DNA from: Alphaproteobacteria bacterium
GTDB lineage: Bacteria > Pseudomonadota > Alphaproteobacteria > Rhodobacterales > Rhodobacteraceae
Length of the DNA stretch: 64,000 nucleotides
Assembly (NCBI GenBank): GCA_030428355.1
Contig: JAUIBL010000002.1
Location: 1 to 64,000 of the forward strand
Reading direction: 5' to 3'
Within the stretch, counting starts at the first letter, position 1; each line of letters starts with the position of its first letter. The notes beneath the pieces are model-generated. The model was not told the origin of the DNA, made no database searches, and saw only the letters and a list, made by a program, of their open reading frames with translations. Below, one piece after another: positions 16,850 to 53,411 of this stretch. The position numbers and the translations under genes are program-made.

Positions 16850-16951
16850 AAGACTCGCCGGATGCCGCTGTCAGGCATGTGGCTGCGGTGCTGGTGCAAC
16901 GAGAACAAGAACGTCCCAAGCGAAAGGCTTTGGGAGGATAAAGGAAGACCC

Positions 16952-17956
16952 ATGACTGTCAGATTCGCGATCCTTGGTGCAGGCCGTATCGGCCAGGTCC
17001 ATGCCAAGGCTGTCACCGCCACCCCAGGTGCCACATTGGTTGCCATCGCCGACCCCGTGGCAGACGCGGCGAAGGCGGTGGCCGACCGCTATGGCTGCGA
17101 CATCCGCACCATCGACGAGATCGCGGCGTCGGGTGACGTGGACGCGGTGGCGATCTGCACCCCGACCAACACCCATGCGGACCTGATCGAGCAGTTCGCA
17201 AAGGCGGGCAAGGCGATGTTCTGCGAAAAACCCGTGGACCTGAGTCTCAAGCGGGTGCAGGACTGCCTTGCCACCGCCTCGGCGGAAGGGGCGACCCTGA
17301 TGGTCGGCTTCAACCGCCGCTTCGATCCCGACTTCATGGCGGTCAAGGCGGCCATCGACGCAGGCCGCATTGGCAAGGTCGAGATGGTCACGATCACCTC
17401 GCGCGATCCCGGCGCACCGCCGGTCGAGTATATCAAGGTGTCCGGCGGCATCTTCCGCGACATGACCATCCACGACTTGGACATGGCCCGCTGGCTCTTG
17501 GGGGAAGAGGTCGAAACCGTGATGGCGCAGGCCTCGGTCCTGACCGATCCCAAGATCGGCGCGGCGGGGGATTTCGACAGCGTCAACGTCATGCTGCGCA
17601 CCGCATCCGGGAAACAGGCGATCATCACCAATTCCCGCCGCGCCACCTATGGCTATGACCAGCGGATCGAGGTGCTGGGTTCCGAAGGCATGGTCAGCGC
17701 AAAGAACATGGCCGAGGCGAATATCGAACTGGCCAACGGCTCTGGCTTCGGCACGCCGCCGCTGCTCAATTTCTTCATGACGCGCTACGTCGCAGCCTAC
17801 GAAAACGAAATCGCAGCCTTTGTCGCCTCGGTCGCCGAGGGTGCACCAACGCCCACCACCGGGCAAGACGGGCTGATGGCGCTGGCACTGGCCGACGCGG
17901 CGGTGCTGTCTGTCAAGGAAGGCCGCGCGGTCAAAGTTTCCGAGATCACGGGCTGA
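16952..17956 (+). CDS. iolG: Inositol 2-dehydrogenase
   Basis: MTVRFAILGAGRIGQVHAKAVTATPGATLVAIADP...CEKPVDLSLKRVQDCL...GFNRRFDPDF...DMTIHDLDMARWL; located between the transporter and iolCDE. Confidence 0.9.
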   Translation: MTVRFAILGAGRIGQVHAKAVTATPGATLVAIADPVADAAKAVADRYGCDIRTIDEIAASGDVDAVAICTPTNTHADLIEQFAKAGKAMFCEKPVDLSLKRVQDCLATASAEGATLMVGFNRRFDPDFMAVKAAIDAGRIGKVEMVTITSRDPGAPPVEYIKVSGGIFRDMTIHDLDMARWLLGEEVETVMAQASVLTDPKIGAAGDFDSVNVMLRTASGKQAIITNSRRATYGYDQRIEVLGSEGMVSAKNMAEANIELANGSGFGTPPLLNFFMTRYVAAYENEIAAFVASVAEGAPTPTTGQDGLMALALADAAVLSVKEGRAVKVSEITG

Positions 17957-17959
17957 GCC

Positions 17960-19873
17960 ATGACCAAGACACTCGACCTCATCACCATCGGCCGATCATC
18001 TGTGGACCTTTACGGGGCACAGGTGGGTGGCCGGCTCGAGGATATGGGGTCGTTCGACAAGTATATCGGTGGCTCGCCCACGAATATCGCCTGCGGGACG
18101 GCGCGGTTGGGTATGAAGTCGGCGGTGATCACCGGAGTCGGCGATGAACATATGGGCCGCTTCATCCGCGAGCAGTTGGAGAAAGAGGGCGTGGACACGA
18201 CCGGGGTCAAGACCGACCCCGACCGCCTGACCGCGCTGGTGCTGCTGGGCATCCGCGATCAGGAGCAGTTTCCGCTGATCTTCTACCGCGAGAATTGCGC
18301 CGATATGGGGCTGACGGTTGAGGACATCGACCCGGAGTTCATCCGCCGGGCACGAGCCGTGGTCGCCACCGGCACCCATCTCAGCCATCCCCGGGTGGAG
18401 GCCGCGACGCTCAAGGCGCTGCAGATCGCGCGGGATGCGGGCATGCAGACGGCGCTCGACATCGACTATCGCCCGAACCTTTGGGGTGTGGCGGGCCATG
18501 GCGACGGGGAAAGCCGCTTTGTCGAAAGCGCCGCCGTGACGGCCAAGCTGCAGTCGACGCTGCACTATTTCGACCTGATCGTCGGGACCGAAGAAGAGTT
18601 CCACATTGCGGGCGGCAGTACGGATACGATTGAAGCCCTGCGCGCCGTGCGGGCGGTATCTGGCGCGACTTTGGTCTGCAAACGCGGGGCCGCAGGTGCA
18701 GTGGCGTTTGAGGGCGACATCCCGGACTCTCTGGACGACGGCCAGACCGGACCGGGCTTTCCCATCGAAGTGTTCAACGTCTTGGGCGCGGGCGACGGGT
18801 TCATGTCCGGCCTGCTGAAAGGCTGGCTGGACGGCGAGGATTGGCCCACCGCTCTTAAATACGCCAATGCCTGCGGAGCGTTCGCAGTCAGCCGCCACGG
18901 CTGCACCCCGGCTTACCCAAGCTGGGACGAGCTGCAATTCTTCTTCAAGCGGGGCATCAAGCGGCCCGACCTGCGCAACGATGCGGAGCTTGAACAGGTC
19001 CATTGGGCCACAAACCGCAAGGGAGACTGGTCCACCCTGCGCACCTTCGCCTTCGACCACCGGTCACAACTGGAAGAGATGGGGGGCTACACACCCGAGA
19101 AGGGTGCGGCGTTCAAGGAGCTGTGCCTCGACGCGGCGCTCAAGGTGGCGAACGGGCAGGGGGGCTATGGCATTCTCTGCGACAACCGGATCGGTCGCAG
19201 CGCGCTGCACCGGGCCAGCGGCACCGGCCTCTGGATCGGACGACCCACCGAACTGCCTGGGTCGCGGCCCATCGAGTTTGAGCCGGAACTGGGCGACGAC
19301 CTCGGCGGTTTGCGCGAATGGGCGCGCGAGAACGTGGTCAAACTGCTGGTCTTCTGCCACCCCGACGATGACGACAAGACCGCCAAGATGCAGGTCGCCC
19401 GGGTCAAGCGGCTGTTCACCGCCGCACGGCGCAACGGGTTGGAATTCCTGCTCGAAGTGATCCCGTCCAAGGTCGGCCCGGTGGACGACATGACAACTGC
19501 GACCTTGATCCAAACTTTCTACGACGCGGGCGTCTACCCTGACTGGTGGAAGCTGGAGCCGTTCAAGACGGACGCAGCTTGGACCAACGCCGTCGACGCG
19601 ATCACCCGCAACGATCCCCGCACACGCGGGATCGTGGTGCTGGGCCTCGATGCGCCCGAAGACGAACTGGCGGCCAGCTTTGCACTGGCGGCGAAACAAC
19701 CGCTCGTCAAAGGCTTTGCCGTAGGTCGCACGATCTTTGGCGATGCCGCGCGAGGATGGATGCAAGGCCAGATGAGCGACACCGAAGCCGTAACACAGAT
19801 GGCCGACCGCTACACCCGGCTCTGCCGGATATGGGACGACGCCCGAAGAGGCGCGAAGGAGGACGCAGCATGA
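17960..19873 (+). CDS. iolC: Bifunctional 5-dehydro-2-deoxygluconokinase / DUF2090 (aldolase-type) fusion (copy 2 of iolC)
   Basis: N-terminal PfkB kinase (GGSPTNIACGTARLG...NVLGAGDGFMSGLL) fused to a long C-terminal domain beginning KRPDLRNDAELEQVHWATNRKGDWSTLRTFAFDHRSQLEEMG; 637 aa. Confidence 0.92.
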   Translation: MTKTLDLITIGRSSVDLYGAQVGGRLEDMGSFDKYIGGSPTNIACGTARLGMKSAVITGVGDEHMGRFIREQLEKEGVDTTGVKTDPDRLTALVLLGIRDQEQFPLIFYRENCADMGLTVEDIDPEFIRRARAVVATGTHLSHPRVEAATLKALQIARDAGMQTALDIDYRPNLWGVAGHGDGESRFVESAAVTAKLQSTLHYFDLIVGTEEEFHIAGGSTDTIEALRAVRAVSGATLVCKRGAAGAVAFEGDIPDSLDDGQTGPGFPIEVFNVLGAGDGFMSGLLKGWLDGEDWPTALKYANACGAFAVSRHGCTPAYPSWDELQFFFKRGIKRPDLRNDAELEQVHWATNRKGDWSTLRTFAFDHRSQLEEMGGYTPEKGAAFKELCLDAALKVANGQGGYGILCDNRIGRSALHRASGTGLWIGRPTELPGSRPIEFEPELGDDLGGLREWARENVVKLLVFCHPDDDDKTAKMQVARVKRLFTAARRNGLEFLLEVIPSKVGPVDDMTTATLIQTFYDAGVYPDWWKLEPFKTDAAWTNAVDAITRNDPRTRGIVVLGLDAPEDELAASFALAAKQPLVKGFAVGRTIFGDAARGWMQGQMSDTEAVTQMADRYTRLCRIWDDARRGAKEDAA

Positions 19874-40159: not shown

Positions 40160-40267
40160 CGTTAACGGTGCTATGCGTCGTACCATGCCGCATGGTTGCT
40201 AAGCGGCGACCCGGCGGGACGATACAAGCCGGGCAAAACCATCAATGTATGCGTTTGGGAGGAACCA

Positions 40268-41257
40268 ATGCAGAAGATCACAGCACTTACACTTGCCGTC
40301 ACCTGTGCGATGACGGGGCAGGCGATGGCCGACGGCCACGGCGACCGCACCGGCTGGCCGGAAAGCTTTACAGTGGGCACCGCGTCGCAGGGCGGCACAT
40401 TCTTTGCCTATGGTTCGGGCTGGGCAAACCTTGTCGCGGAAGAGCTGGGCATTTCCGGCGGTGCAGAAGTCACCGGCGGCCCGATGCAGAACATGGCGCT
40501 GGTTCACACCGGCGATGCGCAGTTCGGCATGACGACAATGGGTCCGGCGGCGGAATCGCTGGCAGGCACCAACCCGATCGCGCCCGGTCTGCAGATGACC
40601 AATGCCTGCGCGATGTTCCCGATGTATCAGACCCCGTTCTCGGTGACGGCGCTGTCCTCGTCCGGCATCACGTCGATCTCGGAAATCCCGGATGGCGCTC
40701 GCATCGGCTTTGGCCCCGCTGGCTCCACCTCGGACACCTACTTCCCGCTGATGATGGAAGAGCTGGGTGTGAATTTCGAACGCCGCAACGGCGGCTGGTC
40801 CGACCTCGGCGGTCAGCTTCAGGACGGTCTTCTGGACGTAATCGCCTTTGCGGCGGGTGTTCCGGTGCCTGCCGTGTCGCAGCTTGAAGTGCAGACCGAC
40901 GTGAACATCATCGAGTTCACCGAAGAAGAGCAGGCCAAGATCATCGAAGCCTTCCCGGTCTCTGCCTTCGAAATCGCGGCGGAAACCTACACAACTCTGG
41001 AAGCCCCGGCGCGGTCGGTGTCGATGTGGAACTTCGCGATTGCCAACTGCGACCTGCCGGCAAGCTTTGTGAACGCGGCGGTTGACGTCGTCATGTCCGA
41101 CAACGAGCGCATGGTGAACATCCACCGCGCGGCCACCGCCACGCTACCGGAAAACTGGGACAAGAACACCGTCATGAAATGGCATCCCGGTGCGGCCCAG
41201 TGGTTCAAGGACAACGCGGGCGCTGACATTCCCGACAGCATGATCCACGGCATGTAA
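40268..41257 (+). CDS. TAXI-family TRAP transporter solute receptor
   Basis: Signal peptide; FTVGTASQGGTFFAYGSGWANLVAEELGI...GPAGSTSDTYFPLMMEELGV. Confidence 0.88.
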   Translation: MQKITALTLAVTCAMTGQAMADGHGDRTGWPESFTVGTASQGGTFFAYGSGWANLVAEELGISGGAEVTGGPMQNMALVHTGDAQFGMTTMGPAAESLAGTNPIAPGLQMTNACAMFPMYQTPFSVTALSSSGITSISEIPDGARIGFGPAGSTSDTYFPLMMEELGVNFERRNGGWSDLGGQLQDGLLDVIAFAAGVPVPAVSQLEVQTDVNIIEFTEEEQAKIIEAFPVSAFEIAAETYTTLEAPARSVSMWNFAIANCDLPASFVNAAVDVVMSDNERMVNIHRAATATLPENWDKNTVMKWHPGAAQWFKDNAGADIPDSMIHGM

Positions 41258-41266
41258 GCCGTCTTG

Positions 41267-41299
41267 CGGCGGCGCTGCACCGACAGCGCCGCCGTTTTT
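41267..41299 (+). terminator. Strong terminator/attenuator-like stem-loop between the TAXI receptor and its permease
   Basis: CGGCGGCGCTG-CACCGA-CAGCGCCGCCG-TTTTT: perfect 11-bp arms plus T-tract, 10 nt after the stop codon. Confidence 0.8.
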
Positions 41300-41401
41300 C
41301 CAGGCATCCCGTGCGACACAGATCGCGCTCAAGCGGATGCCCTTTTTGCAGAATCGAAGCGCCGACGCAGACGCCTAGGCGACTTTGCCAGGGAGGTGGC
41401 A

Positions 41402-43669
41402 ATGGTTCAGGAATCCACAAAGGCCGAGGACGGGCTGATCGCCGACGGGGTCGATGAAGAACCGATCGAGGGCAACCGTCGCATTTTCTCGGGATGGCGC
41501 ATGCAGGTCGTGGCAGGCTTTGCCGCGCTCTATGCCCTGTTCCACATGGCAGCCCTGAACGGTGTGTCGATCTCGGCCTATACCGGGATCACCGTGCCGC
41601 TCTTGCCGCAATTTCCCATGGAAACCTGGAACTTCCGCATCGTCCACATCGCAGGAGCCCTCGCCTTGGGGTTCGTCGTCTACAATGCGATGCTGTTTTC
41701 TGAAAAGGACGACGCCCCGCAAAGCGGCCTCTGGGACAAGATCGCCTATGTGCTGTTTTTGCCCGCGTTGCTGGCCCTTGGCACAAGCCTCTGGTTTGCT
41801 CAGACAATCGCGTCCGGCACTTTGCCCGAAATGGGTGGCCTGACGACCTGGCCCGCCTTTGCAGGCACGCCGATCTACAGCCAGGAAGTCTGGTATTTCG
41901 GCATTCCGCTTCTGGTCGCGACAGGCGGCGGGATCGTGATCGGCTGGTTCGAAAAAGCTCCGAGGGATCGCTTTCGTGTGTCTGACGTGTTGCTGGCCCT
42001 GTGTGGCATCGCCGTTGCGGCTTATCTGATCACGATCTACGGCACCGCAGCCCGAAACGCGGTCGGCACGCCCTTCGTTCCCGTCGGGGTGGCTTTTGCA
42101 GCGACCGCCGGGTCTGCGATGATCCTTGAATTGACGCGCCGTGTGGCGGGCCTTGCGCTGGTCATCATCACCGCTGTGTTCCTTGTCTACACCTTCGTTG
42201 CGCATCTTCTGCCCGGTATCCTGGCCGTGCAGAGCGCCTATAGCTGGCAGCGTTTCTTCGGGCATGTGTACTCGGACGCCGGGATCATCGGGCCGACCAC
42301 GGCGGTGTCTTCGACGTATATCATCCTTTTCATCATCTTCGCGGCCTTCCTGCAGGCGTCAAAGGTGGGCGACTATTTCGTCAACTTCGCCTTTGCGGCC
42401 GCCGGTCGCGCACGGGGTGGTCCTGCCAAGGTGGCGATCTTCGCCTCGGGCCTGATGGGCATGATCAACGGTACATCGGCAGGCAACGTGGTGGCGACCG
42501 GGTCGCTGACCATTCCGCTGATGAAGAAGGTGGGCTATCGCCCCACCACGGCTGGCGCAGTTGAAGCCGCAGCTTCCACCGGCGGACAGATCATGCCGCC
42601 GATCATGGGGGCGGGTGCCTTCATCATGGCCGAGATCACCGGCATTCCGTACCAGGAGATCGCCATCGCGGCGATCATTCCGGCGGTGCTCTACTTCGTG
42701 TCGGTCTATTTCATGGTCGATTTCGAAGCGGCCAAGCTGGGCATGCGTGGCATGCGCGAGGATGAACTGCCGAAGCTCGCCAAGATGGTGCGGCAGGTTT
42801 ACCTCTTCATCCCGATCATCATCCTGATCGCCGCGCTGTTCATGGGGTATTCGGTGATCCGGGCCGGGACGTTGGCCACGATTGCGGCCGCCGTGGTAAG
42901 TTGGCTGACCCCGTTCCCGATGACCTTTCGGGGTATCGCCAAGGCGTTTGAACTGGCAGGGGTCATGTCGATCCAGATCATCGCGGTCTGTGCCTGTGCA
43001 GGCATCATTGTCGGCGTGATTAGCTTGACAGGCGTCGGCGCGCGGTTCTCGGCGGTGCTGCTTGATCTGGCCGGTGTGAGCCAGCTTCTCGCGCTGTTCT
43101 TCGCCATGTGCATCGCGATCCTGCTGGGCATGGGCATGCCGACAACGGCGGCCTATGCTGTTGCGGCCTCGGTTGTGGCACCGGGCCTCGTGCAGTTGGG
43201 TATCCCGCAACTGACCGCGCATTTCTTCGTGTTCTACTTTGCGGTGCTTTCGGCCATCACGCCCCCGGTAGCACTGGCCAGTTATGCGGCGGCGGGCATT
43301 TCCGGCGCGAACCCGATGGAGACCAGCGTTGTCAGCTTCAAGATCGGCATCGCGGCCTTCATCGTGCCGTTCATGTTCTTCTACAACAGCGCCTTGCTGA
43401 TGGACGGCACATGGTTCGAAGTCATCCGCGCTGGCATCACGGCCACGTTCGGCGTGTTCCTCCTCTCCGGTGGGGTGCAGGGCTGGTTCGTCGGACAGCG
43501 GGCGGCGTGGTTCATCCGCCTTGGGCTGATCGTTGCGGCGCTGTTCATGATCGAGGGCGGGTTGATCACCGACCTGATCGGGATCGGAGCAACAGCGGCC
43601 GCATGGCTGGTGCAACGGTTCCTACATCCCGACCCCAATGCGCCCATCCCGGTGCGCGGGGCAGACTGA
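41402..43669 (+). CDS. TRAP transporter fused permease (TAXI-associated)
   Basis: About 755-aa polytopic protein; FASGLMGMINGTSAGNVVATGSLTIPLMKKVGYRPTTAGAVEAAASTGGQIMPPIMGAGAFIMAEITGIPY. Confidence 0.92.
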   Translation: MVQESTKAEDGLIADGVDEEPIEGNRRIFSGWRMQVVAGFAALYALFHMAALNGVSISAYTGITVPLLPQFPMETWNFRIVHIAGALALGFVVYNAMLFSEKDDAPQSGLWDKIAYVLFLPALLALGTSLWFAQTIASGTLPEMGGLTTWPAFAGTPIYSQEVWYFGIPLLVATGGGIVIGWFEKAPRDRFRVSDVLLALCGIAVAAYLITIYGTAARNAVGTPFVPVGVAFAATAGSAMILELTRRVAGLALVIITAVFLVYTFVAHLLPGILAVQSAYSWQRFFGHVYSDAGIIGPTTAVSSTYIILFIIFAAFLQASKVGDYFVNFAFAAAGRARGGPAKVAIFASGLMGMINGTSAGNVVATGSLTIPLMKKVGYRPTTAGAVEAAASTGGQIMPPIMGAGAFIMAEITGIPYQEIAIAAIIPAVLYFVSVYFMVDFEAAKLGMRGMREDELPKLAKMVRQVYLFIPIIILIAALFMGYSVIRAGTLATIAAAVVSWLTPFPMTFRGIAKAFELAGVMSIQIIAVCACAGIIVGVISLTGVGARFSAVLLDLAGVSQLLALFFAMCIAILLGMGMPTTAAYAVAASVVAPGLVQLGIPQLTAHFFVFYFAVLSAITPPVALASYAAAGISGANPMETSVVSFKIGIAAFIVPFMFFYNSALLMDGTWFEVIRAGITATFGVFLLSGGVQGWFVGQRAAWFIRLGLIVAALFMIEGGLITDLIGIGATAAAWLVQRFLHPDPNAPIPVRGAD

Positions 43670-43675
43670 AAAAGC

Positions 43676-43704
43676 AAAGGGCCGCCCCATCGGGCGGCCC
43701 TTTT
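43676..43704. terminator. Bidirectional-type intrinsic terminator between convergent genes
   Basis: AAAGGGCCGCCC-CATC-GGGCGGCCCTTTT, just after the permease stop and before the convergent mutarotase gene. Confidence 0.85.
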
Positions 43705-43730
43705 CGATTGGTGCGGCGGGTGTGATCCGA

Positions 43731-44174
43731 TCAGAACACGACGCCCTTGCGCAGGATGAAGCAGCCGAACGGGCGGTCTTCGGTGCATTGCACCACCGCA
43801 AAACAGGTCGCCGCATGTCTGTAGAACGCTTGCCGTTCGATGCTGGACAGAACGCCACTTTCGGGAAGGCGCGGTTGTAGCAGATCCCACACGGCTTGAT
43901 GCACCTCGGACAGCGTGTCGGGTGCGTTGTCGATCTCCATCCGCAGCGCCGAATAGCTATGGAAACTGTCAAGCGGCATCACCTGTGTGATGAGGTCGGC
44001 CAGTGTCGGCGCGTCATGTCCGGGATAGTGGATCACGTCCTTGACCAAACATCCCGCCGCTGATGTGGCAGAGGGGTAGTTGCGGTCGGTTAAAACGATC
44101 TCGTCGCCATGCCCCATCCGGGCCAGTGTATAGAGAAGCTCGGGCGTCAGGCGCGGATCCAGTCCGATCAACAT
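43731..44174 (-). CDS. RbsD/FucU-family sugar mutarotase
   Basis: MLIGLDPRLTPELLYTLARMGHGDEIVLTDRNYPSATSA...SFHSYSALRMEIDNAP...ERQAFYRHAATCFAVVQCTEDRPFGCFILRKGVV. Confidence 0.88.
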   Translation of the reverse strand: MLIGLDPRLTPELLYTLARMGHGDEIVLTDRNYPSATSAAGCLVKDVIHYPGHDAPTLADLITQVMPLDSFHSYSALRMEIDNAPDTLSEVHQAVWDLLQPRLPESGVLSSIERQAFYRHAATCFAVVQCTEDRPFGCFILRKGVVF

Positions 44175-44200
44175 GGGCAGCTCCGGTCGTGGAGGGTAAG

Positions 44201-44229
44201 GCCTGACCCGACGCGGGGCCGGGTCAGGC
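44201..44229 (-). promoter_or_regulatory. Intercistronic stem-loop GCCTGACCCG-N9-CGGGTCAGGC 3' of the binding-protein gene
   Basis: Perfect 10-bp arms between the substrate-binding protein and the mutarotase gene. Confidence 0.7.
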
Positions 44230-44238
44230 GGGTCATGT

Positions 44239-45279
44239 TCAACGCGGGGGCAGGGGCATCCAGTCGGCCATCGCCACATCCGCGTGCTGGAACTGGGGCA
44301 TCTTCGCGCCGAGGTCTTCCATGTTGCGGATGTCGTTGTCGTTGAGGAACGCCTGCGTGATGAGGGTCGGCGGCACGATGACCGACGCGCCGGGGTTCTC
44401 GCCTGTCAGCATCAGCGCCAGCGCCCGGACGGACACCTCACCAACAACCGCCGGGTTGGTGGCGACGGTCGCCTTCCAGCCGCTGCCCGCCTCGCGCATG
44501 AGCGCGATGTCGGCGGTCGAGATGTCGGCGGAATAGATGCTCAGATCACCGCCGATGCCCAGCTCGTCGGCGGCGATCTTCACGCCTTTGGCGAACTCGT
44601 TATAGGGCGCGAAGAAGACCGAGATGTTGGGGTTCGCCTGCAGGGCCGCCCGTGCCTGATTGGCGTTCGCGTTGGCAATCGGGTTGTCGAGCGTGCCGAT
44701 GCGGGCCGCTTCGGTGATGCCGGAATTGGCGGCCTTCACCTCTTCCCACGCGACATGGCGACGGTCCAGCGGCGCGATGCCTGGCACGTACACGTAGCCG
44801 GCGGCAAAGCTGTTGCCGTTGTCGGTGATCGCCTGTTCCAGCGCAAGCTTGCCCAGCAGGTAGTCCGACTGTTCGATCTGCGGGATCGCCTCGTTCTCGA
44901 CGTTCACGTCGAAAGCGACAACCTTGATCCCCGCATCCACGGCCCGCTGTGCCGCGTCGCGCATGGATTCGGTCAGGCCGTGCTGGATGATGATCCCATC
45001 GACGCCAAGCGCGATGGCCTGATCCACCATGTCGGCCTGCAGCGCGGCGTCCTGACGGCTGTCGAACACCCGCAGGTTCACGCCAAGGGCGGCTGCCTGG
45101 GATTCAACGCCCGACAGATACGCCTGGAAGAAGTCGCCGGTGGACAGGTAGCGCACCAGCGCGATAGTCACGTCGCCGGGTTTGTCCAGCGGGGCGGGGG
45201 CGCTCTGCGCCGTGGCGGCACCCGCACCGAGGGCGAGGCTGGCCGCGCTCGCAAGGGCCATGAAGTGACGTCTCAGCAT
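44239..45279 (-). CDS. Sugar ABC transporter substrate-binding protein
   Basis: Signal peptide MLRRHFMALASAASLALGAGAATAQ; DMVDQAIALGVDGIIIQHGLTESMRDAAQRAVDAGIKVVAFDV. Confidence 0.88.
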   Translation of the reverse strand: MLRRHFMALASAASLALGAGAATAQSAPAPLDKPGDVTIALVRYLSTGDFFQAYLSGVESQAAALGVNLRVFDSRQDAALQADMVDQAIALGVDGIIIQHGLTESMRDAAQRAVDAGIKVVAFDVNVENEAIPQIEQSDYLLGKLALEQAITDNGNSFAAGYVYVPGIAPLDRRHVAWEEVKAANSGITEAARIGTLDNPIANANANQARAALQANPNISVFFAPYNEFAKGVKIAADELGIGGDLSIYSADISTADIALMREAGSGWKATVATNPAVVGEVSVRALALMLTGENPGASVIVPPTLITQAFLNDNDIRNMEDLGAKMPQFQHADVAMADWMPLPPR

Positions 45280-45304
45280 GATGATTCCTCCCTATCGCTG
45301 ATTG

Positions 45305-46315
45305 TCAGTGTCCTGTGCCGCTGCGACGCGACGACAGGTAGAATGTGAACACAAGGGCCGCGACCAGAACCGCGCCCTTGACGAAATCCTGCGTGTAGTA
45401 GGGCGCGTTCATCATCGTCATGCCTTGCAGCAGGATGCCGACGAACAACGCGCCGATGGCGGTGCCAAAGGCGTTGGGGCGGGCCGCGCCGAGCACGGCA
45501 AAGCCGATGAGTGCGGCGGCGACGGAGTCCAGAAGCAGGTTGTTGCCGCTGGCGATGTCGCCGCGCCCCAAACGGGCGGCGAGCAGGATGCCTCCGATGG
45601 ACGCGGTCACGCCCGAGATCATGTAGGCGGCCACCTTGTAGCGGTTGACGGGTGTGCCCACGAGCGCCGCTGCCCGTTCGTTCGACCCGATAGCGTACAT
45701 CAGCCGCCCGTGCCTTGTGAAGCCAAGGAACAGCCAGATCAGGACGGCGATGCCGATGAAAATCACAACCGGCATGGGCAGCAGGCGGTCTATCACCAGA
45801 TCGAACCGATGGCGGCCCAGCCACAGGAATGCCGCCGAAAAGGTGCCTTCGGCCACCGTACCATCGGCCAGCGTCATTCCGGTGGCAATGGAATTGCCCT
45901 GCGTCGGGATGCGCTGCAGACCGATCAGTAGGAACATCATGCCCAAGGTCGCCAGCAGGTCGGGCACGCGGAATTTCACGATCAGGATGCCGTTGATGAA
46001 GCCGACCAGCGCACCCATCGCCAGACAGAGGAACACCGCCACAATGGTCGGGTGTTCGAGGATCACCATGGAGTAGGCCGACAGCATCAGCGCCGATGTG
46101 GCGACCGCCCCGATGGACAGATCGAACCCACCCACGACCAACGTGCAGGTCACGCCAAGCGCCAGAATCCCGGTGATCGCCACGGATTGCAGCACAAAGG
46201 CGGCCGACAGCGGGCCGAAGAAGCCGGGTGCCGCGAGGCTGAAATAAACGATCAGCCCGGCCAGCAGGATCAGAAAGCCGTAACGGATGGCAAAGTCGAG
46301 AAGTCGGTCGTTCAT
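45305..46315 (-). CDS. Sugar ABC transporter permease
   Basis: LALGVTCTLVVGGFDLSIGAVATSALMLSAYS...GSNERAAALVGTPVNRYKVAAYMISG. Confidence 0.88.
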   Translation of the reverse strand: MNDRLLDFAIRYGFLILLAGLIVYFSLAAPGFFGPLSAAFVLQSVAITGILALGVTCTLVVGGFDLSIGAVATSALMLSAYSMVILEHPTIVAVFLCLAMGALVGFINGILIVKFRVPDLLATLGMMFLLIGLQRIPTQGNSIATGMTLADGTVAEGTFSAAFLWLGRHRFDLVIDRLLPMPVVIFIGIAVLIWLFLGFTRHGRLMYAIGSNERAAALVGTPVNRYKVAAYMISGVTASIGGILLAARLGRGDIASGNNLLLDSVAAALIGFAVLGAARPNAFGTAIGALFVGILLQGMTMMNAPYYTQDFVKGAVLVAALVFTFYLSSRRSGTGH

Positions 46316-47829
46316 GGATGTGCGCCTGTTTCTGTCGATTGCGCCCCCGAGATGTCCGCAACAAGGGCTCCGAGGTCGACATTCTGGTTCTTGTGTTCGC
46401 CGACGATGGCACCTTCGTGCATCACGACGATCCGGTCCGCGATCTCGAGCGCCTCGTCGATTTCCGCAAGGAAAACGAGCGTCGCCCGACCTTTGGCGGT
46501 GGCACGGATGTGCCGCCCGATGTCGCGCCGCGCACCAATGTCGACGCCCTGAAACGGCTCGTCCAGCAGAAGCACCTTTGCCGGTTCCAGAAGCCAGCGG
46601 GCGATCATCACCTTCTGCTGGTTGCCCCCTGAGAGCGTGCCGATACCGTCACCCACCGATTGGCAGACGATGCCAAGCTGGCTGACCATCTCCTGTGCGC
46701 GGGTTTTCTGGCGGTTTGCCTTGAGAAACGACCCGACGCTCAGTCCCTTGAGAAAGGGCAGGGTCATGTTGTCGGCGATGTCGAAGGCCGGGATCACAGC
46801 GTTGGTGCCCCGGTCCTTGGGGGACATGAACACGCCCTCTGCCACCGCGTCTTCGACCGAGTTTGGCGCGTAGTCCGTGCCGGTGATGCGGATCGCTCCG
46901 CTGGCCGGGCGGGCCATACCATAGAGGATTTCGGCCAAGCGGCTCTTGCCGCTGCCCAGAAGGCCGACCAGCGCCACCACTTCGCCATCGCGGGCCTGCA
47001 GGTTGATCGGTGCCGCCCCGTGGAAAAGCCGCAGGTCTGCAAGCTCCAGAACAGGGGCGGTGCCGCTTTGCACAGCCACATCCACCTCGGTCATGCGGTG
47101 GCCCAGCATGGCTGTGACGGCGGCTTCGTAGTCCAAAGGTTCGGTCTCGAACGTGCCGGAAATCGCTCCGTCGCGCATGACGATGATCCGATCCGCGATG
47201 CGCCGGATGTCGGACATGCGGTGCGAGATGTAGAGGATGGCAACGCCCTGCGCGCGCAGCCGGTCGATCAGGGCGAACAATCTGTCCGCCTCGGTCGCCG
47301 AAAGCGAGGATGTTGGCTCGTCGAGGATCAGGACCTTGGGCGCGCGGGCCATGGCGCGGGCGATGGCGATCATCTGGCGATCCGCAACCGACAGGTCGGA
47401 CACGCGGGCGCGCAGGTTCACGTCGATCCCCATGGCGGCGGCGACCTTGGCCGCCTCGGCGCGCAAGTGGCGTTCGCGCACGAAGAGTCCATGGCTGCGT
47501 TCCACGAGCCGGTCCAGCATCAGGTTGTTGGCGACGTCCAGATCGGGAATCACACCGTCGTCGATGGACTGGTGAACCGTGACGACACCCTGCCGGATCG
47601 CGTCGGCGGCACCCACGGGATCAAACGCCTGACCGGCCAGCATCATGTTGCCGCCGTCGGCGCGGTGATGGCCACATATCACCTTGACCAGCGTGGATTT
47701 GCCGGCACCGTTCGCGCCCATGAGAACGGTGACGGACCCCGGTTCCAAGGTCACATCAATCCCACGCAATACATAGTTTTTTCCGAACGATTTTTGCAAA
47801 CCGTTCACTTTGAGCGCATGAACAGCCAC
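46312..47829 (-). CDS. Sugar ABC transporter ATP-binding protein, tandem NBD (RbsA-type)
   Basis: LMGANGAGKSTLVKVICGHHRADGG...LSVADRQMIAIARAMARAPKVLILDEPTSSLS...GLLGSGKSRLAEILYGM...LSGGNQQKVMIARWLL. Confidence 0.92.
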   Translation of the reverse strand: MAVHALKVNGLQKSFGKNYVLRGIDVTLEPGSVTVLMGANGAGKSTLVKVICGHHRADGGNMMLAGQAFDPVGAADAIRQGVVTVHQSIDDGVIPDLDVANNLMLDRLVERSHGLFVRERHLRAEAAKVAAAMGIDVNLRARVSDLSVADRQMIAIARAMARAPKVLILDEPTSSLSATEADRLFALIDRLRAQGVAILYISHRMSDIRRIADRIIVMRDGAISGTFETEPLDYEAAVTAMLGHRMTEVDVAVQSGTAPVLELADLRLFHGAAPINLQARDGEVVALVGLLGSGKSRLAEILYGMARPASGAIRITGTDYAPNSVEDAVAEGVFMSPKDRGTNAVIPAFDIADNMTLPFLKGLSVGSFLKANRQKTRAQEMVSQLGIVCQSVGDGIGTLSGGNQQKVMIARWLLEPAKVLLLDEPFQGVDIGARRDIGRHIRATAKGRATLVFLAEIDEALEIADRIVVMHEGAIVGEHKNQNVDLGALVADISGAQSTETGAHP

Positions 47830-47876
47830 TCGGTACCTCCCCTGATGGGGCGAAGGTAGGCGGGTGCAAATACATT

Positions 47877-47893
47877 TGTCAAATGATTTGACA
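47877..47893. promoter_or_regulatory. Perfect palindrome TGTCAAAT-G-ATTTGACA in the divergent ABC / mtnK intergenic region
   Basis: 8-bp perfect arms around one central base, read directly. Confidence 0.75.
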
Positions 47894-47955
47894 TAAGTGT
47901 AAATTGAAGGCTACGCACAGGGAGAGGGCGCATAGGAGAAACGGGGAGGTCACCG

Positions 47956-49215
47956 ATGAGCGCAGGCACAACCTATGAAGCGCTGAGCGTCGAGACACTG
48001 CCGGACCGTCTGAAGGACGTGGCTGACTTGGCGTCGCAGGTGGGCGCGGATCATGCGACGTGGCAGGTGCAAGAGGTCGGGGACGGGAACCTGAACCTTG
48101 TCTTTATTGTGACCGGACCCAAGGGCAAGGCGGTGGTGAAGCAGGCGCTGCCCTATGTGCGACTGGTGGGGGACAGTTGGCCGCTGCCTCTCTACCGCGC
48201 ATACTACGAATACCATGCGCTGACCCGCCAGGCGGCGCGCGATCCGGGATCGGTGCCCGAGATTTACCATTTCGATGAAGGGCAGGCGCTGATCGTGATG
48301 GAGTATCTCTCGCCCCATGTGATCCTGCGCCGCAAGTTGATCGCGGGGGAACGGGTTGACGGCCTCGCCGATTTCCTTGGCAAGTTCTGCGCCCGCACCG
48401 CGTTTCGCGGGTCGGAGCTGTCGATGAAGAGCGGCGACAAGAAAGCCGATGTCGGGTTGTTCGCGGGCAATGTGGATATTCCGGCCATCACCGAGGCGTT
48501 GGTTTTCACCGATCCCTATTATTCAGCCGAGATGAACCACCACACCGAGGGTCTGGACCCGGTCGTCAAACGCCTCCGGTCTGATGTTGCGCTCAAGGTG
48601 AAGGTGCAGCAGGCGTTGCAGCGGTTCGTGTCCAACACCGAAACCATGGTGCATGGCGACCTGCATTCCGGCTCGATCATGTCGACGGACCGTGAAAGCC
48701 GGGTGATCGACCCGGAATTCGCCCAATACGGGCCGATGGGGTTCGATATTGGCATGCTCTGCGCGAATTTCCTGATGGCTTATTTCAGCCAGCCCGCGCA
48801 TCGCGGCGATGATCTGGATGCCTATCAGGAGTGGATTTTGGGCGTGATCGAAGAGATCTGCACGACCTTCGAGGCCGAGTTCCGCCATCTCTGGAGAACC
48901 GAACGGACGGGCATTCTCTACCCAGCGTGCCTGTTCGAGGATCAGGGCCACGACAGCACCCCCGCCTGTGATGCGGTACTTGCGGGCATCTGGCGCGATG
49001 CGTGGGCGGTCTGTGGTATCGAGATGCACCGCCGCTGCCTGTCGCTGGCCCACAATGCCGATTTCGAAGACATCGCTGACCCGGCGGTTCGGGCACCCTT
49101 GGAAGCGCGCAACCTGCTCATGGGCGCGGAACTGATCCACGAGGCCGACAGGCTGACCGATGCACGCGCCGTCTGCGCCATCGCGCGGGACTTCAACGGA
49201 AAGGACCTCCTATGA
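47956..49215 (+). CDS. mtnK: S-methyl-5-thioribose kinase
   Basis: [49 protein letters not shown]...[18 protein letters not shown]...[12 protein letters not shown]...[17 protein letters not shown]. Confidence 0.95.
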
Positions 49216-50315
49216 AGATCGACGGAACCCATTATCGCTCGCTGTGGTGGAACCACGACAAGGACGTTCTCGAGATCATCGACCAACGCTGGTTGCCGCA
49301 TGATTTCCGGGTGATCCCGGTGACGACGATGCAGGACTACGCCGATGCCATCTACGAGATGCGCGTGCGCGGCGCGCCGTTGATCGGGGCCACGGCAGCT
49401 TACGGTATGGCGCTTGCGATGGCGGAAAACCCGTCAGATGCAAACATGGATGCGGCGTGGACGTTCCTTGAGAAAACGCGCCCCACGGCAATCAACCTGC
49501 GCTGGGCGCTTGACCGCTGCCGTGCCGCCTTGCGACCCTTGCCGGAGGCCGATCGTGCTGCTGCGGCTTTGGCTCTGGCGCACGAGATTGCGGATGAGGA
49601 TGTTGAGATCAACCGCCGGATCGGGGAAAACGGATTGGCCATCATCCGCGAGATCGCGGCAAAGAAGCCAGCCGGAGAACCGGTGCGTCTGCTGACCCAT
49701 TGCAACGCGGGATGGCTGGCAACGGTGGACTGGGGCACAGCCACAAGCCCGATGTATCAGGCGCATGATGCGGGCATCGCCCTGCATGTCTGGGTGGACG
49801 AAACCCGCCCCCGCAATCAGGGGGCGCTGACCTCGTGGGAGTTGGGCAAACACGGCGTGCCGCACACCTATATCACCGACAACGCGGGCGGGCACCTGAT
49901 GCAGCACGGCATGGTGGACATGGTGATCACCGGCACCGACCGGACAACGCGGCAGGGCGATGTGTGCAACAAGATCGGCACCTATCTCAAGGCGCTGGCC
50001 GCCCATGACAATGGCGTGCCGTTCTATGTGGCGCTGCCCTCACCGACCATCGACTGGAGCGTGACGGATGGTGTCGCCGAGATTCCCATCGAAGAGCGCA
50101 ATGCACACGAGGTGACCCATGTCCAGGGTGTTCTGGACGCCGGTGGGATCGGCACGGTGCAGGTCACTCCTGAAGGCACTCCGGGCGGCAACCCGGCCTT
50201 TGACGTGACACCGAACCGTCTGGTCACCGGCCTGATCACCGAACGCGGGGTTTGCGAGGCGTCGGAAGTGGGGCTTGCAGGCCTGTTTCCCGAATTCGCC
50301 CGCGCGGCGGAATAG
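49212..50315 (+). CDS. mtnA: S-methyl-5-thioribose-1-phosphate isomerase
   Basis: [47 protein letters not shown]...[19 protein letters not shown]...[16 protein letters not shown]. Confidence 0.95.
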
Positions 50316-50324
50316 GTCACAGCG

Positions 50325-51323
50325 ATGCCGCTGTCGTCCGGGACCAAAGCCCGCAGCTCCGATCCGATGCGCCTCTCGGTCCGCGATGACACATCCCATA
50401 TCGAAGCGGCGTGGCTCTATTACCATGACGGGCTGAACCAGAACGACATCGCCGAACGTATGTGCATCAGCCGTGCGTCCGTGGTCAATTACCTGAACGA
50501 AGCGCGCAACCGGGGGTGGGTCCGCGTCCATATGGACAGTGAGGTGTTCAAGGGGCACCGGCTGGCCGAAGAACTCTGCGCGGCCTATGGCCTGACCGAA
50601 GCGATGGTGGTGCCCGACGATCCGGTCGCGCCGGATGGCACGGCGGCCAGTGTCGCGCGGGTGACGCGGGCGGCGGCCGATTGGCTGCCGCGTCTGTTGG
50701 AGCCGGGTGACCGGCTGGGTGTGTCCTGGGGGGCGACGGTCTACCAGATGGCGCAGCAGGTGCCGAACGCGCCGATCCCGGACCTGACGGTGATTCAGCT
50801 TCTGGGCTCGCGCCCGGCCGCGCTGGGCTTTGCCGCCGAAGCCTGCACCGCAATGCTTGCGCAACGGCTTGCCGCCGAATGTATCAATTTTCACGCCCCG
50901 CTGGTTCTGTCGAACAAGGCGCTCCGAGATGCGCTGTGCAACGAACCCGTGGTGCGCGACCAGCTTGCGGCGCTGGCCACCTGCAACAAGACGGTTCTGG
51001 CCTGCGGCACCTGCGATGCAGATGCCCATGTGGTGCGCAGCGGGATCGTCACTCCGCAGGAGATTGCCAACTATCGCGCCCGAGGGGCCGTCGGCGTGAT
51101 CTGCGGACGCCTCATCGACGAGGAAGGGCAGCCTGTGGTGGCCGATGTCGAGGACCGGATGATCGGTGTTTCGCTTGACCAGATGCGGAACAAGGACATG
51201 GCGCTTCTGGTTGCGGCTGGACAAGGGCGGGCCCATCCGGCGCGCGCGGCGATGAAGGGCGGGTTCGTGACCCACCTCGCAACCAGTACACGTGTTGCCG
51301 AAGAGCTTTTGGAGATGACGTGA
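50325..51323 (+). CDS. SorC/DeoR-type sugar-binding transcriptional regulator
   Basis: AWLYYHDGLNQNDIAERMCISRASVVNYLNEARNRGWVRV plus sugar-binding-type effector domain. Confidence 0.87.
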   Translation: MPLSSGTKARSSDPMRLSVRDDTSHIEAAWLYYHDGLNQNDIAERMCISRASVVNYLNEARNRGWVRVHMDSEVFKGHRLAEELCAAYGLTEAMVVPDDPVAPDGTAASVARVTRAAADWLPRLLEPGDRLGVSWGATVYQMAQQVPNAPIPDLTVIQLLGSRPAALGFAAEACTAMLAQRLAAECINFHAPLVLSNKALRDALCNEPVVRDQLAALATCNKTVLACGTCDADAHVVRSGIVTPQEIANYRARGAVGVICGRLIDEEGQPVVADVEDRMIGVSLDQMRNKDMALLVAAGQGRAHPARAAMKGGFVTHLATSTRVAEELLEMT

Positions 51324-52003
51324 TGACCCCGGCCAAACCGCTGCCCGACGCCATGGAAACCCGGCAGGCGCTGATTGATGCGTGTCTGTGGATGAACGAA
51401 CGGCATCTCAATCAGGGCACATCGGGCAATATCTCGGCGCGGACCGAGGCGGGTATCCTGATCACGCCGTCGGGGGTGCCTTACGAAGAACTGACGCCGG
51501 ATCAGATGGTGACGATCCCGTTCGACGGACTGCCCGACGGAACGGGGCTGAAGCCGTCTTCGGAATGGCAGTTTCACCAGGGTCTGCATCAGGCGCGCCC
51601 GGACATGCCGGTCGTCCTGCACGCCCATCCACCCTATTGCAGCATTCTTGCGGTGCAGCGCCGCGCCATCCCGGCCTGCCATTACATGATCGCGGCGTTT
51701 GGAGGCAACAACGTGCCTCTGGCCGACTACGCGTTGTTCGGCAGCCCCGAGCTTTGCGCGAACATGGCCGAGATCATGTCGGACCGGCACGGGTGTCTCA
51801 TGGCCAACCACGGCGCAACGGTGCTGGGAGAAAGCGTTGCGAAAGCGCGCTGGCGGTTGGAAGAGCTTGAGACATTAGCACGGACCTATCTGTTCAGCAG
51901 CATCGGAGGGACACCGCACATCCTGTCGGATGCCGAGATTGCCGAGGTGCTTGACGCGTTCCAGTCCTATGGGCCCCGTCCCGTTGGCGACGCCGCGGTC
52001 TGA
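51323..52003 (+). CDS. Class II aldolase/adducin-family aldolase (predicted 5-(methylthio)ribulose-1-P / 5-deoxyribulose-1-P aldolase)
   Basis: GTSGNISARTEAGILITPSGVPYEELTPDQMV...HAHPPYCSILAVQRRAIPACHYMIAAFGG...MANHGATVLGESVAKARWRLEELE; follows mtnK-mtnA. Confidence 0.88.
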   Translation: MTPAKPLPDAMETRQALIDACLWMNERHLNQGTSGNISARTEAGILITPSGVPYEELTPDQMVTIPFDGLPDGTGLKPSSEWQFHQGLHQARPDMPVVLHAHPPYCSILAVQRRAIPACHYMIAAFGGNNVPLADYALFGSPELCANMAEIMSDRHGCLMANHGATVLGESVAKARWRLEELETLARTYLFSSIGGTPHILSDAEIAEVLDAFQSYGPRPVGDAAV

Positions 52004-52180
52004 CGGGGATGCGCCGGGTGTGATCCATTGGCGGGGTTTCGCTATCCGTCGCAGGTGATGGCGCTTTTATCCACATTTCCGCACTTGTGTCGGCGTCCAA
52101 GCGCCCGAATGCCGCGCCAAACCGCTGTTTGAACGTCGCCTGTGTGCTTTGGTGCAGTGGGCAAGTCGGGAAATTCGTCT

Positions 52181-52194
52181 AAGGTGCGCACCTT
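52181..52194. promoter_or_regulatory. Perfect 14-bp palindrome AAGGTGCGCACCTT upstream of the FIST gene
   Basis: Self-complementary sequence read directly, about 30-50 bp upstream of the start codon. Confidence 0.6.
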
Positions 52195-52220
52195 GAGGAT
52201 TCGTGGAATAAAGGTGGCCG

Positions 52221-53411
52221 ATGCACTTCATGTCTGTACAGTCGAACTCTGTGAATGTCGCAGACGGCATCGACGAGATTTCAGCCGAGCTTGAAACGCA
52301 AGGTCGCGGTGTCCCCGATTTTGTGGCGCTGCATTTTGGCGTCGGCCACGACGCCGCAGAGCTGCATGTCGCGGCCCAATCCGGTCTTGCGGCGGGGGCT
52401 TTGCATGGTGGGTCGTCGGCGCTTGGTATCATGGGGGCCGACGGGCTGGACATCGGGGGGTCAGGTCTGGGGGCTTTCGCCATCTGGGATGCGGCAGGCA
52501 GTTACGGCACCAGTTCCGCCGATCTGGGTGTTGATGCAGAACGCGCCGCGCATGACGCCGCAGTGGCCGCGCTCGAGAATGCTGGACGTCCCGGCGAGAT
52601 TCCCGAGCTGGTCTGGCTGACCGTCGCGCCAGGCCGTGAAGAAGAAGTGATCGCGGGATTGCGTGCGGTTGTCGGTGCCGAGACGCTGATCGTCGGTGGC
52701 ACATCCGCGGACAATGATGTCAGCGGTCAATGGGCCCAGTTCGGACCGGACGCGCTCCATTCGGACGGTGTGGTGGTGACGGTGCTGTTTCCGTCCGCCC
52801 CGGTGACTTCGGTGTATCAAAGCGGCTACGCCCCGACCGGTGACAGCGGGATTGTCACGCGAGTCGAAGGCCGTCGGGTGTTCGAGATCGACCACCGGCC
52901 CGCAGCCCAAGTCCTTCAGGATTGGAGCGGCGGTGCTGTGCACTCGGTAGTTGATGAAACACGCTCGATCCTTGCAGAAGCGACCCTTTGGCCGCTTGGG
53001 CGCGAGACCCGACAGGTTGCAGGCGTTCCATTTCATCTGTTGGCGCATCCTGCTGTTGCGCATCCGGATGGGGCCGTTGATCTTTTTGCAGCGGTGTCGG
53101 AAGGGGATCGACTCTGGCAGATGGCCGGGTCTGCCGACAGTCTGGTGGCACGTGCCGGGCGCGTTGCGGCGCAAGCCCGGCAGAATGCCGGAGACAGCAT
53201 ATCGGCCGCCTTGGTCGTGTATTGTGGCGGCTGCATGTTTGCCGTGCGCGACCGTATGGACGAGGTCACAGCAGGCATCCAACAGGAATTGGGTGATATT
53301 CCCTGGCTTGGCCTTTTCTCGTTCGGAGAGCAGGGGGCACCGGCAGGAGATGTTTCGAAACACGGAAACCTGATGGTTTCGTGTACGGTGTTCAGCGGGA
53401 AAGTTGTGTGA
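52221..53411 (+). CDS. FIST-domain protein (FIST_N/FIST_C), NosP-like
   Basis: HFGVGHDAAELHVAAQ...GALHGGSSALGIMG...VGGTSADNDVSGQWAQF...GYAPTG...ALVVYCGGCMFAVRDRMDEVTAGIQQELGDIPWLGLFSFGEQG; next to a hybrid histidine kinase. Confidence 0.85.
   Translation: MHFMSVQSNSVNVADGIDEISAELETQGRGVPDFVALHFGVGHDAAELHVAAQSGLAAGALHGGSSALGIMGADGLDIGGSGLGAFAIWDAAGSYGTSSADLGVDAERAAHDAAVAALENAGRPGEIPELVWLTVAPGREEEVIAGLRAVVGAETLIVGGTSADNDVSGQWAQFGPDALHSDGVVVTVLFPSAPVTSVYQSGYAPTGDSGIVTRVEGRRVFEIDHRPAAQVLQDWSGGAVHSVVDETRSILAEATLWPLGRETRQVAGVPFHLLAHPAVAHPDGAVDLFAAVSEGDRLWQMAGSADSLVARAGRVAAQARQNAGDSISAALVVYCGGCMFAVRDRMDEVTAGIQQELGDIPWLGLFSFGEQGAPAGDVSKHGNLMVSCTVFSGKVV

Follow-up and report, generated by a model that had tools for sequence, protein, structure and literature searches.

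A predicted uptake-and-catabolism island for 5-methylthioribose and 5-deoxyribose in a Rhodobacteraceae genome

Gene content and organization of the locus

The stretch of DNA analysed here (the window: 64,000 nucleotides, positions 1 to 64,000 of the forward strand of contig JAUIBL010000002.1, assembly GCA_030428355.1, family Rhodobacteraceae) carries between positions 43731 and 52003 a group of eight genes predicted to take up and degrade 5-methylthioribose and 5-deoxyribose. The original prediction had described an eight-gene locus in which transporter genes and the genes of a dihydroxyacetone phosphate (DHAP) shunt are divergent, and this description is borne out by profile scores and coordinates, since all eight genes are intact and in place. 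The features are as follows.

43731..44174, minus strand: RbsD/FucU-family mutarotase (PF05025, 100 bits), with a predicted role in converting one anomer of the incoming sugar into the other
44239..45279, minus strand: periplasmic binding protein with signal peptide (PF13407), predicted to bind 5-methylthioribose/5-deoxyribose
45305..46315, minus strand: ABC permease of the ribose-type BPD_transp_2 family (PF02653, 132 bits)
46312..47829, minus strand: ABC ATPase with two nucleotide-binding domains (PF00005, ABC_tran, in two stretches; Walker A and signature motifs)
47877..47893, no strand: perfect palindrome of 17 bp, TGTCAAATGATTTGACA, within the 126 bp that separate the divergent operons, a likely operator for the regulator encoded in the island
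47956..49215, plus strand: mtnK, 5-methylthioribose (and 5-deoxyribose) kinase (TIGR01767, 457 bits)
49212..50315, plus strand: mtnA, 5-methylthioribose-1-phosphate isomerase (TIGR00512, 438 bits)
50325..51323, plus strand: regulator of the SorC/DeoR family that probably represses the two operons (PF04198, 191 bits)
51320..52003, plus strand: FucA-like class II aldolase with predicted Ald2 activity (PF00596, 183 bits)

The transporter and mutarotase genes on the minus strand are thus divergent from the mtnK-mtnA-regulator-aldolase genes on the plus strand, and overlaps of 4 bp at the ATPase/permease, mtnK/mtnA and regulator/aldolase junctions suggest translational coupling. The mutarotase, whose start is probably at 44174, is nearer FucU than RbsD (61 vs 26 bits) and its PDB matches are FucU homologues. 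It was found in 17 of the 59 related loci with full flanks and is therefore considered an optional component. On one side the island is flanked by a TRAP transporter and on the other by a FIST protein and a PAS histidine kinase; because these genes vary among relatives, they were placed outside the island. The TRAP transporter is of the TAXI type (binding protein and DctM-type permease, 40196-43669) and lies just past the mutarotase in most Marivita loci.

Solved relatives of the binding protein

A family profile of the binding protein, compared with all PDB sequences, gave 261 bits for 4ry8, 159 bits for 5ulb of Yersinia and at most 64 bits for ribose binders. The AlphaFold model of the protein (pLDDT 88) had 4RY8 as its top Foldseek match (E 1e-30, 37% identity) with the E. 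coli ribose-binding protein at E 2e-17, and this structural ranking of the solved relatives agrees with that of the profile. The 4RY8 entry bears the title "5-methylthioribose transporter solute binding protein"; the family consensus is 39% identical to it over 318 residues, and the stretches common to both include IALVR, APLD-R, DEFAKG and IEQ-D. As judged by sequence and modelled structure, the relationship to 4RY8 is the strongest single evidence for a predicted methylthioribose/5-deoxyribose substrate class, and it does not discriminate between methylthioribose and 5-deoxyribose as the ligand. Among the papers available for searching, none was found that names 4RY8 or uses the term methylthioribose transporter, and nothing on methylthioribose turned up for ligand screens of binding proteins.

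The permease, ATPase and mutarotase belong to generic ribose or fucose families and the aldolase is FucA-like, all of which would also fit a transporter and mutarotase for a common sugar (ribose, fucose), with mtnK, mtnA and the aldolase merely salvaging the 5'-methylthioadenosine (MTA) and 5'-deoxyadenosine of the cell itself. Such an arrangement is difficult to reconcile with a binding protein much nearer 4RY8 than the ribose binders, and further evidence on it is given in the following sections.

Conservation of the linkage between transporter and kinase

Relatives of the binding protein at no less than 75% identity, and mtnK above its cut-off, were counted in 199 genomes of the same family. 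The binding protein was present in 22 of the 199, and all 22 held mtnK as compared with 6 of the 177 others. The ATPase-permease-binding protein unit was divergent from and adjoining mtnK-mtnA in 21 of these 22 genomes, mtnK being on another contig in the last one. Among the loci of named genomes, a set that overlaps the 199 in some genomes, mtnK was adjacent in 76 of 80, the other four being short or at contig ends. The transporter-mtnK-mtnA arrangement is not due to chance. This strict co-occurrence, together with the 4RY8 relation, backs the claim of the original prediction that the ribose-type transporter is dedicated to the 5-methylthioribose/5-deoxyribose class, and a binding protein never found without mtnK in the family argues against a transporter of common sugars.

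The nearest named genomes are those of Marivita, whose binding proteins are 95-100% identical, which makes the host a marine member of the Rhodobacterales; the unit ranges over Rhodobacterales, Hyphomicrobiales (Roseibium, Hoeflea, Sinorhizobium meliloti pSymB) and some gammaproteobacterial bins (Granulosicoccaceae). On pSymB of S. meliloti (NC_003078 1639435-1640373) and in its relatives (L060/L061), a binding protein of 76% identity is divergent from mtnK-mtnA, and no aldolase was found within about 9 kb. A second type of binding protein, 38% identical, occurs in loci L053 (genome G091) and L054 (genome G014), mtnK being about 9 kb off in L053.

The distribution of the locus also bears on whether it chiefly detoxifies 5-deoxyribose leaked from radical S-adenosylmethionine (SAM) reactions, a role put forward for Bacillus thuringiensis, with the transporter recapturing the leak. 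B. thuringiensis deprived of the kinase, isomerase or aldolase is described as growing slower with 5-deoxyribose (PMC6079011, as conveyed in PMC10986504). However, an importer with a binding protein would bring the toxic sugar inward, and the locus is confined to about one ninth of the family genomes (22/199) though radical SAM enzymes are near-universal, so that a detoxifying role is very improbable.

Kinase, isomerase and aldolase of the predicted DHAP shunt

Both MtnK and MtnA score well above the cut-offs of their equivalog profiles (457 bits vs 275 for TIGR01767 and 438 bits vs 279 for TIGR00512). MtnK contains the HGDLH and DPEF motifs and its PDB matches are the methylthioribose kinase 2olc and its homologue 2pyw, while MtnA contains the Cys164 and Asp243 motifs and is 61% identical to the MtnA of the E. 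coli DHAP shunt. The aldolase falls below every NCBIfam cut-off shown, but keeps Glu82, His101, His103 and His164, aligned to residues 73, 92, 94 and 155 of FucA, which we take to be the metal and catalytic positions. A FucA-like sequence is likewise found in E. coli Ald2 (PMC3228920), and E. coli uses the same three enzymes to grow on 5'-deoxynucleosides and 5-deoxypentoses (PMC10986504). In Bacillus, the MtnK homologue DrdK accepts methylthioribose as well as 5-deoxyribose but does not act on ribose (PMC6079011). The original assignment of mtnK and mtnA to a DHAP shunt, with the class II aldolase as its candidate third enzyme, is supported, as far as predicted activities go, by the equivalog scores, the catalytic residues and the lack of mtnD described below.

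Regulator and palindrome of the divergent gap

Over 319 residues, near its full length, the regulator shares 35% identity with E. coli YjhU, which was shown to repress the DHAP shunt of that organism and renamed MtnR (PMC12632272). In the 3.56-Mb genome the exact form TGTCAA-N5-TTGACA occurs solely at 47877-47893, and an inverted-repeat search picked out this site as well. When 97 related gaps were surveyed with a spacing of 3-7 and at most one mismatch allowed, some genomes being counted twice, 51 had an exact site and 34 a site with one mismatch (85 in total), whereas only 9 of 1911 control segments drawn from these loci had one. For Marivita and near relatives, promoters are predicted in both directions; the halves of the palindrome double as their -35 boxes (TTGACA), and CTAC-like -10 boxes lie 17 bp off on either side. 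The palindrome overlaps both predicted -35 boxes, and a bound repressor would therefore block both operons; its conservation may be partly due to the promoters. Based on these sequence features, it is likely the operator of the co-encoded regulator, which would presumably bind it. A single palindrome between both operons is, in addition, unexpected for a transporter of common sugars placed beside an internal salvage pathway.

Control by a riboswitch was also considered and rejected, as an Rfam search of 43500-52300 matched no SAM riboswitch or other element.

Salvage genes elsewhere in the genome and source of the sugar

Besides the absence of other mtn genes from the window, which the original prediction had found to agree with a shunt rather than full methionine salvage, neither mtnD nor MtnB was found beyond it, mtnC and mtnE not having been searched for. 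The mtnD gene (ARD) was absent from this genome and 11 relatives (12 genomes), and no MtnB was found among the class II aldolases of the genome, the only others being a rhamnulose-1-phosphate aldolase/dehydrogenase and a PRK07490-type protein. The route would therefore end at DHAP and an aldehyde, and a shunt instead of full methionine salvage is supported by these gene contents.

The island could also serve mainly for sulfur, methylthioribose being imported and its methylthio group regained as methanethiol or methionine, and R. palustris does regain sulfur from MTA via Ald2 (PMC5893883). In the present case, however, the lack of mtnD in all 12 genomes is joined by the lack of sulfur-salvage genes at the locus (downstream methylthioethanol/methanethiol genes were not searched for), and the regulator is of the SorC/DeoR type of sugar catabolism and not of a methionine type, with no SAM riboswitch. 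Moreover, the E. coli shunt recovers no significant sulfur (PMC10986504). A function mainly in sulfur recovery is consequently unlikely.

No MTA phosphorylase or nucleosidase was found in this assembly, which is 87% complete. Nine sister Marivita genomes each hold a third gene of the nucleoside-phosphorylase family, consistent with MTA phosphorylase, and its absence here is therefore probably an assembly gap. For the same reasons, the idea that this genome is without MTA phosphorylase/nucleosidase and hence reliant on outside sugar was dropped.

MTA phosphorylase scored above its cut-off in 172 of the 199 family genomes; of the 22 that carry the cluster, 15 were among them. As this enzyme yields the 1-phosphate directly, such cells can process their own MTA without MtnK. 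That a kinase lies beside an importer, in genomes that mostly have MTA phosphorylase, suggests that free sugar is taken in from outside, and the original proposal of scavenging rather than only internal salvage is supported by these relatives. Since they need no kinase for internal MTA, a common-sugar transporter next to an internal salvage pathway becomes, with the evidence from the binding protein, the linkage and the palindrome, an unlikely explanation.

Variants among relatives and a possible RuBisCO-like branch

In the 59 loci with full flanks, the genes beyond the transporter, mtnK and mtnA fall into the following variants.

Stand-alone aldolase: 26 of 59 loci
Stand-alone aldolase, split transketolase and RuBisCO-like protein: 6 of 59 loci
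Aldolase-dehydrogenase fusion: 9 of 59 loci
Fusion, transketolase and RuBisCO-like protein: 9 of 59 loci
Fusion and RuBisCO-like protein: 2 of 59 loci
Transketolase and RuBisCO-like protein only: 2 of 59 loci
None of these downstream enzymes: 5 of 59 loci

The fusion is a 680-residue protein in which a class II aldolase is joined to a short-chain dehydrogenase; it resembles the rhamnose enzyme and differs from the rhamnulose-1-phosphate aldolase/dehydrogenase of this genome (32% identity). This domain composition suggests that the fusion protein itself oxidises or reduces the aldehyde product. It replaces the aldolase in L035 (1483-3516), L037, L041, L042, L044, L046-L049, L051, L076, L114, L118, L120 and others. 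Directly after the aldolase of L032 lies an aldo/keto reductase gene (16896-17975), whose product might act on the released aldehyde, and in L043, L049 and L050 (11496-12371) a DeoC/LacD-family aldolase adjoins the transporter operon.

The closest match of the RuBisCO-like protein (RLP) of relatives is 3qfw, presumably a Rhodopseudomonas palustris RLP, and the pair of proteins beside it is similar to transketolase and DXS. In R. palustris, RLP1 acts as a methylthioribulose-1-phosphate 1,3-isomerase (PMC5893883). It is conceivable, although somewhat doubtful, that in these relatives the RLP isomerises 5-deoxyribulose 1-phosphate or its methylthio form to 1-deoxyxylulose 5-phosphate or its methylthio form, which the transketolase pair would convert to glyceraldehyde 3-phosphate and a two-carbon unit, replacing aldol cleavage. 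The RLP and the split transketolase/DXS-like pair lie next to or within the mtnK-mtnA-transporter cluster in L036, L038, L040-L042, L044-L048, L084, L086-L088, L091-L093, L095, L102, L104, L109, L115, L117, L119, L122, L130, L133, L134, L136, L138 and L143. They are the only candidate downstream enzymes found in L040, L086, L092 and L117, and on a Mariluticola halotolerans plasmid (NZ_CP090961, L062, 510-4665) mtnK, mtnA, both transketolase genes and the RLP gene form one run. None of the papers searched was found to describe the RLP and transketolase combination with this cluster. Such a branch was rejected for the present genome itself, no RLP being found in it or in nine sister Marivita.

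Proposed working of the island

Taken together, the gene identities, the catalytic residues, the linkage, the conserved palindrome and the relation to a crystallised methylthioribose binder, all read from sequence, lead us to infer, with a probability of roughly 0.83, that the locus serves as an island for the uptake and catabolism of 5-deoxyriboses, whether or not these carry a methylthio group, its ligand, enzyme activities, operator binding and effector being predicted. The binding protein would capture 5-methylthioribose or 5-deoxyribose in the periplasm for import by the ABC transporter, and the mutarotase would provide the anomer that the kinase accepts. MtnK would then form the 1-phosphate; after isomerisation by MtnA, the resulting ribulose 1-phosphate would be cleaved by the class II aldolase into DHAP, an intermediate of glycolysis, and methylthioacetaldehyde or acetaldehyde. 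Both divergent operons would be repressed by the SorC/DeoR regulator via the palindrome at 47877-47893, which may be released when a pathway sugar phosphate builds up.

Some observations weigh against this uptake-and-catabolism reading. The aldolase is nearer FucA (about 185 bits) than the characterised 5-deoxyribulose-1-phosphate aldolase DrdA (102 bits) and only 39% identical to E. coli Ald2, and homology therefore leaves its substrate unfixed. The ligand of 4RY8 is taken here from the title of the entry. Finally, 5 of the 59 transporter loci are without a recognised downstream enzyme nearby, and the transporter therefore does not always accompany this aldolase.

Methylthioribose and 5-deoxyribose are by-products of the use of SAM, a universal cofactor, and are excreted by some organisms. 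The locus represents a concrete and testable importer for them in many marine Roseobacter-group bacteria and rhizobia, the close relative on S. meliloti pSymB offering a tractable model. If the prediction is true, waste sugars derived from SAM pass between organisms as food, and the conserved operator and swapped downstream enzymes provide handles on regulation and alternative routes.

Comparison with known systems

The E. coli DHAP shunt (PMC10986504, PMC12632272) resembles the present locus in that a single operon holds MtnK, MtnA and a class II aldolase, accompanied by a putative sugar transporter and, next to the shunt genes, by a SorC/DeoR-type repressor gene. It has, however, a single permease, whereas the window has an ABC transporter with binding protein, a mutarotase, and the regulator inside the operon, and the kinase, aldolase and regulator of the window are only 35-39% identical to their E. 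coli counterparts. The drdK-drdI-drdA clusters (Beaudoin et al. 2018, PMC6079011) also combine a kinase, an isomerase and a class II aldolase, some of them with sugar transporters and that of Denitrovibrio with a fucose-mutarotase homologue, and uptake of exogenous 5-deoxyribose was suggested in the same study. In contrast to these clusters, the aldolase of the window resembles FucA more than DrdA, and the transporter operon is divergent with a shared palindrome.

The predicted MtrABC system of the MetJ/S-box regulon (PMC3228920) similarly links a sugar-type ABC transporter to mtnK and mtnA, but there the neighbours are the genes of complete methionine salvage, controlled by MetJ or a SAM riboswitch, whereas no mtnD was found in the present genome and no riboswitch was matched at the locus. 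The second-best solved relative of the binding protein, Yersinia 5ULB, may be the MtrABC binding protein. TLET_1677 (PDB 4RY8) has the same fold and full-length homology to the binding protein at 37-39% identity, ranking first by both sequence and structure, but is, unlike that of the window, a Thermotoga protein. The pathway, its coupling to sugar transporters and to a homologue of fucose mutarotase, the idea of exogenous salvage, the type of repressor and the structure of the binding protein were thus already known separately, to which the present analysis adds the prediction of the operator and the survey of variants.

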